From Geothrix sp. (GTDB lineage: Bacteria > Acidobacteriota > Holophagae > Holophagales > Holophagaceae), in contig NZ_CP126625.1 of the NCBI RefSeq assembly GCF_030219325.1, positions 1,786,857 through 1,850,856 of the forward strand: 64,000 nt of DNA. Reading direction: 5' to 3'. The notes under the pieces are model-generated. The model was given only the letters and a program-made list of their open reading frames with translations. It made no database searches and was not told the origin of the DNA. Every line of letters begins with the position of its first letter. The stretch's first letter is position 1. Shown here in pieces: positions 59,106 to 61,005 of the stretch. A program made the translations under genes and the position numbers.

Positions 59106-59144
59106 TACGAACCGGTTCGTTGACAAATTACGAATCAGTTCGTA
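59106..59144 (+). promoter_or_regulatory. twin BlaI-type operators
   Basis: Two dyads stand 23 bases apart centre to centre. The first, ACGAACCGGTTCGT (59107-59120), is a perfect palindrome. The second, TACGAATCAGTTCGTA (59129-59144), has perfect 6-base arms. They flank and cover the promoter elements, so a repressor bound here would block RNA polymerase. The gene directly downstream encodes a BlaI/MecI repressor, the natural ligand. Confidence 0.8.
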
Positions 59145-59148
59145 TGTT
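59120..59148 (+). promoter_or_regulatory. sigma-70 promoter of the blaI-like gene
   Basis: A perfect -35 TTGACA at 59120-59125 is followed after 17 bases by TATGTT at 59143-59148. The start of transcription would be near 59155, 18 bases ahead of the coding ATG. It is the strongest promoter match I can see in the window and lies inside the twin operators. Confidence 0.75.
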
Positions 59149-59172: not shown

Positions 59173-59559
59173 ATGTCCACCGCGCCCATCCGCCCTTCCG
59201 ATGGTGAGCTCGCCATCCTGCGGGTGCTCTGGTCGCAGGGCCCCTCGACCGTGCGGGACGTGCACACCGAACTGTCGAAGGACCGGGACATGGGCTACAC
59301 CACCGTGCTGAAGCTCATGCAGATCATGGTGGAGAAGGGCCTGGTGGCAAGGGACGAACGCGCGCGCTCCCACACCTACCGGCCACTCCAGGGTGAAGCC
59401 GAGACCCAGCGCTGCCTGCTGAAGGAGCTCCTGCACAAGGCCTTCGCCGGTAGCCGTCGGGAGTTGGTCCTCCAGGCCCTCGAAGCCGAGCCCGCCTCGG
59501 CCGAGGAACTGGAGGACATCCGCCAGCTGCTGAACCAGGCCAAGGGGAGGATCCGATGA
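59173..59559 (+). CDS. BlaI/MecI/CopY-family transcriptional repressor
   Basis: A 128-residue winged-helix repressor. DGELAILRVLWSQGPSTVRD and GYTTVLKLMQIMVEKGLVAR form the DNA-binding domain, with ERARSHTYRPL as the wing, and the C-terminal helices (LKELLHKAFAGSRRELVLQA) dimerise. In the beta-lactamase systems the M56 sensor protease triggers cleavage of the repressor. Here the next gene, overlapping by ATGA, encodes an M56 protease. GGAGG precedes the ATG. Autoregulation through the twin operators is expected. Confidence 0.9.
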   Translation: MSTAPIRPSDGELAILRVLWSQGPSTVRDVHTELSKDRDMGYTTVLKLMQIMVEKGLVARDERARSHTYRPLQGEAETQRCLLKELLHKAFAGSRRELVLQALEAEPASAEELEDIRQLLNQAKGRIR

Positions 59560-60866
59560 ACGAGCTGGCTTCGATCCCCCTCCTCCGGGCCATGGGCTGG
59601 ACCCTGCTCCACAGCCTCTGGCAGGGCGCACTGGCGGGTCTGCTGGCAGCCGTGGCGCTGCGTCTGGCGCGACACCGTTCAGCAGAATTCCGCTATGCCC
59701 TCGCCGCAGGGGCGCTCGGCCTGCTGGTGCTCGCCTTCGCGGGGACCCTGGTCTGGCTCTCTGCCGGCGGCGATCCCCTGGCTGGGGCCGACGCCGTGCT
59801 CATCACCCCCCTGGCTGAGGGGCGCGGGGCTTCCGGTTGGCTGCCCCAGCTGCGCCAGGCCCTAGGCCCTTGGATCCCCGGGCTGTTCCTGGCCTGGGTC
59901 CTCGGTTTTAGCCTGCGGCTCGTCCAACTGGGACGGTCCATGGCCTGGCTCTATGGCACCTGCCTCCGCAGCTTCCTGCCTCCGCCCGCCGAATGGCTGG
60001 CGCGCTTCGAGGCGCTGCGGATCCGCAGCCGCGTTCAGTTTCCTGTCCGCCTGGGGCTTTCCGACCAGGTGGATTCGCTGGTGGTGCTGGGTTGGCTCAA
60101 GCCCGTGGTGCTCGTCCCGGCTGCGGCCCTGCTGGCCCTTCCACCGGAAGGACTGGAGGCGGTGCTGGCCCATGAACTGGCCCATGTCCGCCGGGGCGAT
60201 TTCCTCGCGAACCTCGTCCAGACCTTCGCGGAAGCCCTTCTGTTCTACCACCCCGCTGTCTGGTGGCTCTCCCGGCGCATCCGCCAGGAGCGCGAGCATT
60301 GCTGCGATGACGCAGCCGTGCGGGCCTGCGGCGATCCGATCCTCTACGCCTCCGCCCTCGCCGGGCTGGAGGAACTCCGACTGCAACCCACGTTCGTTTC
60401 CGACCTGGCCCCCGCGGCCAGTGGAGGTCGTCTCATGTCCCGCACCCAGCGCCTGCTGCGCCCCCGAATCACCCACGATCCTGCGGCCCCCCTGGCCGCC
60501 CTGCTTCCCGCAATCCTGCTGGTGGCCGCCCTCGGGGCCGCCACCCTGGCCGCCTCCGACGCGCCGAAGGCCCCGACGGCAGGTCCCATGGAGACGGACT
60601 TCAAGAAGGTACGCATCAAGCACCAGCCCGAGGCCCCCCGCTATCCATCCGAAGCCAAGGCCGCCCGCATCCAGGGCACGGTGGTGGTGGTCGTCACCAT
60701 CGGCATAGATGGCAAGGTCACCGAGGCCAAGGCGGAGTCTGGTCCACCCGAGCTTCAGGCCTGCGCGGTGGACTATGCGAAGGCCTGGGAGTTCGAACCA
60801 GTCAGGGTGAAGGGGAAAGTGGTCCCCGCGCGCTTCAAGCTGACGATGCCGTTCCGTCTGAGATAG
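59556..60866 (+). CDS. M56-family metalloprotease fused to a TonB C-terminal domain
   Basis: A 436-residue membrane protein resembling BlaR1 in its first ~320 residues. Helices TLLHSLWQGALAGLLAAVAL, LAAGALGLLVLAFAGTLVWL and WIPGLFLAWVLGFSLRLVQL precede the zinc motif HELAHVRRGDFLANL (HExxH at residue 206), then REHCCDDAAVRACGD and a final helix (LAALLPAILLVAALGAATLA). Instead of a penicillin-binding sensor the C-terminus is a TonB-like domain (PEAPRYPSEAKAARIQG, VDYAKAWEFEPVRVKGKVVP). The protease should act on the BlaI-like repressor; the TonB part presumably detects or contacts an envelope partner. The domains are clear; the signal is unknown. Confidence 0.88.
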   Translation: MNELASIPLLRAMGWTLLHSLWQGALAGLLAAVALRLARHRSAEFRYALAAGALGLLVLAFAGTLVWLSAGGDPLAGADAVLITPLAEGRGASGWLPQLRQALGPWIPGLFLAWVLGFSLRLVQLGRSMAWLYGTCLRSFLPPPAEWLARFEALRIRSRVQFPVRLGLSDQVDSLVVLGWLKPVVLVPAAALLALPPEGLEAVLAHELAHVRRGDFLANLVQTFAEALLFYHPAVWWLSRRIRQEREHCCDDAAVRACGDPILYASALAGLEELRLQPTFVSDLAPAASGGRLMSRTQRLLRPRITHDPAAPLAALLPAILLVAALGAATLAASDAPKAPTAGPMETDFKKVRIKHQPEAPRYPSEAKAARIQGTVVVVVTIGIDGKVTEAKAESGPPELQACAVDYAKAWEFEPVRVKGKVVPARFKLTMPFRLR

Positions 60867-60886
60867 GGAATTCCCGTTTCCGGAGA

Positions 60887-60907
60887 GGGGGCCGAGAGGC
60901 CCCTTTT
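60887..60907 (+). terminator. rho-independent terminator after the M56-TonB gene
   Basis: GGGGCC-GAGA-GGCCCC followed by TTTT, starting 21 bases after the stop codon. A 6-bp GC stem, tetraloop and T run make a classic intrinsic terminator, closing the blaI-M56 operon. Confidence 0.8.
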
Positions 60908-61005
60908 CCGTCGGCGGGTGGGCATGGTGGAGCTTGACCTCTGGTAACCGTTGCGCGGAGTCCGAACGCCCGGCCATGCTCGATCCACAATCCCGAGGTG
61001 ATCTG

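Follow-up and report, generated by a model that had tools for sequence, protein, structure and literature searches.

What does a BlaR1-type protease sense once a TonB domain stands in the place of its beta-lactam sensor? Proteases of this type are known for antibiotic sensing, yet they are widespread in bacteria and carry varied extracytoplasmic modules. In Geothrix sp., one of them is encoded in a 64,000-nucleotide stretch of DNA (hereafter, the window), together with a BlaI-type repressor and with a TonB C-terminal domain as its extracytoplasmic part.

A BlaI-M56 operon without a beta-lactamase

The repressor and protease genes form an operon with an ATGA overlap (Table 1), which bears out the original prediction that an M56 protease is paired here with a BlaI-type repressor. 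A BlaI gene adjoins m56 in all 80 relatives examined, and the blaI product is 87-95% identical in most close congeners. The Peptidase_M56 (PF05569) match of the protease lies above the curated cut-off. Residues H206, E207, H210, D215, E247 and D251 are invariant in 44 homologues and align with the catalytic set of BlaR1, namely H201ExxH205, D210 and E242xxxD246 (PMC9834060); R299 seems to align with BlaR1 R294 and is Arg in 36 and His in eight of these homologues. The AF2 model has an overall pLDDT of 83, and its transmembrane and protease part (aa 13-292) fits BlaR1 8EXS with a Z score of 19.3 over 246 residues (rmsd 5.6); taken over from BlaR1 through this fold match, the topology would be N-out/C-out.

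The resemblance to BlaR1 ends at the sensor. The blaR1_generic score is 54.6 versus a cut-off of 400, and searches with Pfam and NCBIfam found no penicillin-binding (class-D-like) sensor domain in the protease, where the TonB domain is found instead. The two PF00144-family (beta-lactamase-like) genes of the genome both lie far from the window, in agreement with the predicted absence of a beta-lactamase nearby.

Because the upstream VWA gene is unevenly present beside the operon and the downstream SCP2-like gene is always present, neither was counted as part of the unit: the former, tried as an operon partner, is not adjacent in four of 11 relatives with upstream DNA, and the latter occurs in 12 of 12. 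The hairpin behind m56 was graded weak as a terminator, since the terminator scan did not pick it up. A role in phage defence was considered and set aside, PADLOC having given no match for the protease and weak HTH matches for BlaI alone. Plasmid records gave nothing closer than remote, partial hits annotated as 'M56 family metallopeptidase'.

Table 1. Features of the blaI-m56 operon and its promoter (positions in the window).
Feature	Position	Strand	Remarks
Operator 1, TACGAACCGGTTCGTT, one mismatch	59106-59121	.	Immediately 5' of -35 and overlapping -35
Sigma-70-like promoter TTGACA-17-TATGTT	59120-59148	+	10/12 matches; both operators overlap it
Operator 2, TACGAATCAGTTCGTA, perfect dyad	59129-59144	.	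Between -35 and -10; 23 bp from operator 1
blaI, Penicillinase_R (BlaI/MecI) repressor, 128 aa	59173-59559	+	PF03965, E 1.3e-29; matches MecI structures
Predicted BlaI scissile bond Gln101-Ala102, LVLQ↓ALEA	59473-59478	+	Homology with MecI LVLN↓FVEK
m56-tonB, membrane zinc protease with putatively periplasmic TonB C-terminal domain, 436 aa, ATG start	59556-60866	+	
M56 peptidase domain, aa 110-268	59883-60359	+	Peptidase_M56, E 1.5e-24
HELAH, aa 206-210	60171-60185	+	Other active-site residues D215, E247, D251
Predicted autocleavage-loop segment LAPA↓ASG, aa 284-290	60405-60425	+	Alignment with BlaR1 LSHS↓F
Last transmembrane helix (TM4), aa 311-332	60486-60551	+	
TonB C-terminal domain, aa 347-436	60594-60863	+	Pfam, NCBIfam and fold match
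Hairpin after m56, 13-nt arms, T run inside 3' arm	60881-60910	+	Possible terminator of the two-gene operon (weak)

Predicted cleavage segments

The self-cleavage site of BlaR1 in Staphylococcus aureus is LSHS↓F, and BlaI of that species is cleaved at N101↓F102 (PMC9834060). In Geothrix sp., the protease loop aligns with these sites at LAPA↓A and BlaI at LVLQ↓A; the predicted P1' residue is Ala in both substrates, whereas it is Phe in both in S. aureus, and it departs from the near-invariant Phe of the BlaI proteins studied. Among 96 BlaI/protease pairs from several phyla, all retrieved by similarity to one query and therefore counting as few independent events, P4 is Leu in 95 of the BlaI proteins and P1' is Ala in 93 of them, and P1' of the protease loop is Ala in 79. 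Because P1' has shifted alike in the two presumed substrates, the pattern fits a single protease pocket that would act on BlaI and on the protease's own loop. From these sequence features, we regard BlaR1-like proteolytic derepression of blaI-m56 as highly probable.

Operator and regulon

Both dyads read TACGAA-N4-TTCGT(A/T) and lie over the -35/-10 region of their own operon. At up to three mismatches, 100 shuffled versions of the window all gave fewer dyad matches than were observed. The two dyads are kept in 19 Holophagaceae loci, other genera included, in which the outer dyad positions and the placement relative to the -35 element are conserved and the inner four nucleotides vary; this division into fixed outer and free inner bases points to a real binding site and supports an autoregulatory operator composed of two dyads at the operon's own promoter.

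The regulon had been expected to be limited to the operon itself, which holds in the window but not for the genome as a whole. The proposed scan for TACGAA-N4-TTCGTA dyads, which covered the whole genome (a single contig of 3.73 Mb), returned four sites with at most one mismatch, two at this operon and two at a paralogous blaI-m56 operon (~217-218 kb). At this threshold, no dyad was found outside blaI operons, and none at TonB-dependent receptor genes, anywhere in the genome; nor did the stricter motif TACGAAYYRRTTCGTW, at up to two mismatches, yield any credible further target genome-wide. Since the recognition-helix regions of the two repressors are near-identical (GYTTVLKLMQIM versus GYTTVLKMLQIM), the two blaI-m56 operons likely cross-regulate each other.

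In congeners, 20 stretches with sites at one mismatch or fewer gave no dyad that recurs upstream of one gene family; several of these stretches lie in an attC-like repeat, some near an integrase-like ORF, and others inside ORFs. In several congeners (L133-L137, L142 and L143), dyad-like TACGAA-N4-TTCG sequences are inside a repeat with GGATTAGGC...GTTAGGC ends, and the repeats holding such dyad-like sites are probably integron attC sites. One congener without the operon (G007; L145:1516-1560) retains one near-intact dyad and half of a second between the VWA and SCP2-like genes. Because the flanking genes and the remnant dyads have stayed, blaI-m56 was probably lost in this congener; a small Sel1-like ORF follows the remnant operator.

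Identity and origin of the TonB domain

The replacement of the beta-lactam sensor by a TonB C-terminal domain, as originally predicted, is confirmed. Pfam TonB_C (PF03544) matches aa 360-435 with an E value of 3.6e-15, above the curated cut-off, and NCBIfam TIGR01352 (tonB_Cterm) matches with an E value of 1.8e-12. The AF2 pLDDT is about 92-97 from aa 351 onward, and the modelled domain fits TonB in the FoxA:TonB complex 6I97 with a Z score of 10.6 over 85 residues (rmsd 1.7). The domain shares fold and sequence family with TonB of Pseudomonas aeruginosa and Escherichia coli and is close kin of the stand-alone TonB of the Holophagaceae: 49 of 92 residues (53%) are identical to the C-terminal domain of the genome's own 266-aa TonB, and the last strand, identical at 11 of 12 positions, is the best-kept part.

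M56-linked and stand-alone TonB domains of the Holophagaceae form one starred set in a quick tree (97; 93 columns); in a reduced tree the set reaches 90 and is not starred. In Terriglobus and Rhodanobacteraceae, too, M56-linked domains fall beside the stand-alone TonBs of the same genomes. A single origin of the M56-TonB fusions is rejected for the TonB domains: in an AU test, the M56-linked TonB domains as a whole were not accepted as a single clade (dlnL 332, p 8e-80); within the Holophagaceae, a single capture was not rejected. In the tree of the M56 core, the TonB label changes seven times, with at least four changes forced by starred branches. The AU rejection and the M56 core tree together indicate that TonB domains have been attached to M56 proteases more than once, in different lineages, or have been swapped for local ones.

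Other modules on the same chassis

The genome encodes three further blaI-m56 pairs. One of their M56 proteins ends in an SLT transglycosylase domain, another in a charged proline-rich tail and the third in a segment that matches no Pfam family. A single genome thus shows how the sensing part can be exchanged on a common chassis, and it offers a natural comparison of the TonB domain with three other modules. The protein with the lytic transglycosylase SLT domain (L015:4868-6604; genome about 1219867-1221603) has its own BlaI and a differing, TACACA-like upstream sequence, and its SLT domain contains ESGF, a motif of active SLT domains. The one with the long charged proline-rich tail, to which no Pfam family could be assigned (L014:5550-7820, minus strand), shares the operator type described above.

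Reach of the TonB domain and candidate signals

The original prediction let the protease sense the envelope through TonB-box contact. The TonB domain itself proved genuine; the case for TonB-like contact with receptors in the outer membrane was weakened. The linker from the end of TM4 (near aa 332) to the beginning of the TonB domain (near aa 345) measures about 12 residues; in the genome's own TonB, the transmembrane helix and the C-terminal domain are separated by about 110 residues, which include a poly-proline stretch. The SHLS motif is the motor-binding motif of TonB (PMC12204202); on reading the sequence of TM4 (LAALLPAILLVAALGAATL), no such ExbB-binding motif was found. Both hallmarks of a TonB energy transducer, a transmembrane helix with SHLS and a periplasm-spanning linker, are therefore missing from the protein, and a reach across the periplasm is unlikely. 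Judged from these lengths, the TonB domain would work close to the inner membrane, and contact with outer-membrane receptors is unlikely.

It is accordingly improbable that the domain reaches over the periplasm to the TonB boxes of outer-membrane receptors and thereby signals iron state or the occupancy of receptors, even though its C-terminal strand is its best-preserved part and is the edge at which strands are added in TonB complexes, and although the genome has eight plug-domain matches. Apart from the short linker and the lack of SHLS, receptor genes bear no dyads at one mismatch or fewer. A correlation of the gene with the number of TonB-dependent receptors was looked for and not seen: judged by eye, congeners with and without the gene show no visible difference. 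Still less can be said for a TonB-like energy transducer fused by chance to a protease relic; the TonB fold is genuine, but the zinc-binding and active-site residues are all retained, as are the BlaI partner and the operator, and we regard this explanation as extremely improbable.

Somewhat less improbable than receptor contact, and still doubtful, is a wall-proximal module that senses the state of peptidoglycan or the cell wall. The SLT domain of the M56 paralogue (E 6.9e-24) is a wall-related module in the same position, but this fusion is not directly informative on the TonB domain. The domain might also merely dimerise or anchor the protein, with the signal sensed by the transmembrane part or the loop at aa 73-104; other M56 proteins have quite different C-termini, and an extracellular loop takes part in BlaR1 signalling (PMC9834060). 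Across 17 congeners, however, mean identity is 0.82 for the protease, 0.77 for the TonB domain, 0.61 for TM4, 0.56 for the linker and 0.47 for the periplasmic loop, and the TonB-type strand edge is retained, so that mere dimerisation or anchoring appears unlikely as well.

We favour a one-step proteolytic relay of the BlaR1/BlaI type with the TonB domain as its sensor and consider this proposal, taken as a whole, reasonably probable. In this relay, BlaI dimers on the two dyads over the -35/-10 region would keep blaI-m56 expression low, as the conserved operator architecture suggests. The zinc site would be cytoplasmic and the TonB domain would lie just outside the inner membrane, where a partner would bind or leave it. 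The likeliest mode of contact is beta-strand addition of the kind seen between TonB and TonB boxes, and we give sensing by strand addition an even chance. The change of partner would move TM4 and the autocleavage loop, and the protease would then clip itself and cut the C-terminal half of BlaI at about LVLQ↓ALEA, thereby freeing the operators here and at the paralogous operon.

The outer part of the protease copies the host's own TonB nutrient-uptake domain, which suggests that the protease probably responds to envelope state and not to antibiotics. As a close relative of TonB that would be tethered about 12 residues off the membrane, the domain may share those partners of TonB that can approach the inner membrane; the likeliest would be ExbD or TonB itself, TonB-box segments of receptors before they reach the outer membrane, or peptidoglycan. 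That Ton-system partners near the inner membrane are the signal is a tentative suggestion. Equally speculative is a broader reading, in which M56-TonB is a recurrently invented surveillance receptor of the Ton system: several lineages would each have fused their own TonB domain to a BlaR1-type protease that keeps it at the inner membrane, and free or stalled TonB partners there would switch repressor cleavage. If this were true, a direct proteolytic route from membrane to repressor would join the ways already known by which bacteria monitor outer-membrane transport, as a counterpart of beta-lactam sensing.

Relation to known systems

With BlaR1/BlaI and MecR1/MecI of Staphylococcus (PMC9834060), the present system shares the M56 HExxH...ExxxD signature, the membrane/protease fold, an adjacent BlaI-type repressor, dyad operators at its own promoter and matched segments for self- and repressor cleavage, which are predicted here. 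It differs from them in having a TonB domain for the class-D-like penicillin sensor, an operon without a beta-lactamase and a host with an outer membrane. Unlike TonB, the protein has neither an N-terminal anchor with the motor motif nor a proline-rich spacer, and its TonB domain is placed behind a protease. DegS, an envelope-stress protease with a PDZ domain (PMC7593790), is alike in logic only, in that a peptide-binding domain in the periplasm controls a membrane protease; the protease itself is unrelated, and its substrate is an anti-sigma factor, cleaved in the periplasm, instead of a cytoplasmic repressor.

Both kinds of component are already known, and the M56-TonB fusion is common in genome collections, the architecture being widespread in Acidobacteriota and Pseudomonadota. 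Our search of mostly open-access journal literature on M56/BlaR1 proteins with TonB or other sensors found no paper on the fusion. The proteins of Massilia, Duganella, Terriglobus, Bryobacterales and others combine an M56 protease with one or more TonB domains behind an upstream BlaI gene, as here, but their TonB part is of separate origin, and some have two TonB domains. A module derived from the host's own TonB offers a testable lead on the signal of this large, uncharacterised branch of M56 proteases.

Two or three tandem TonB domains are found on the M56 proteases of other Holophagaceae (L041, L044, L046 and L048). In the Geothrix genome, a TonB C-terminal domain of this type also occurs in a Sel1-repeat protein (L017:1585-3216; genome about 728584-730215); this domain is very close to that of the genome's own TonB, and the protein is not transport-like in appearance.
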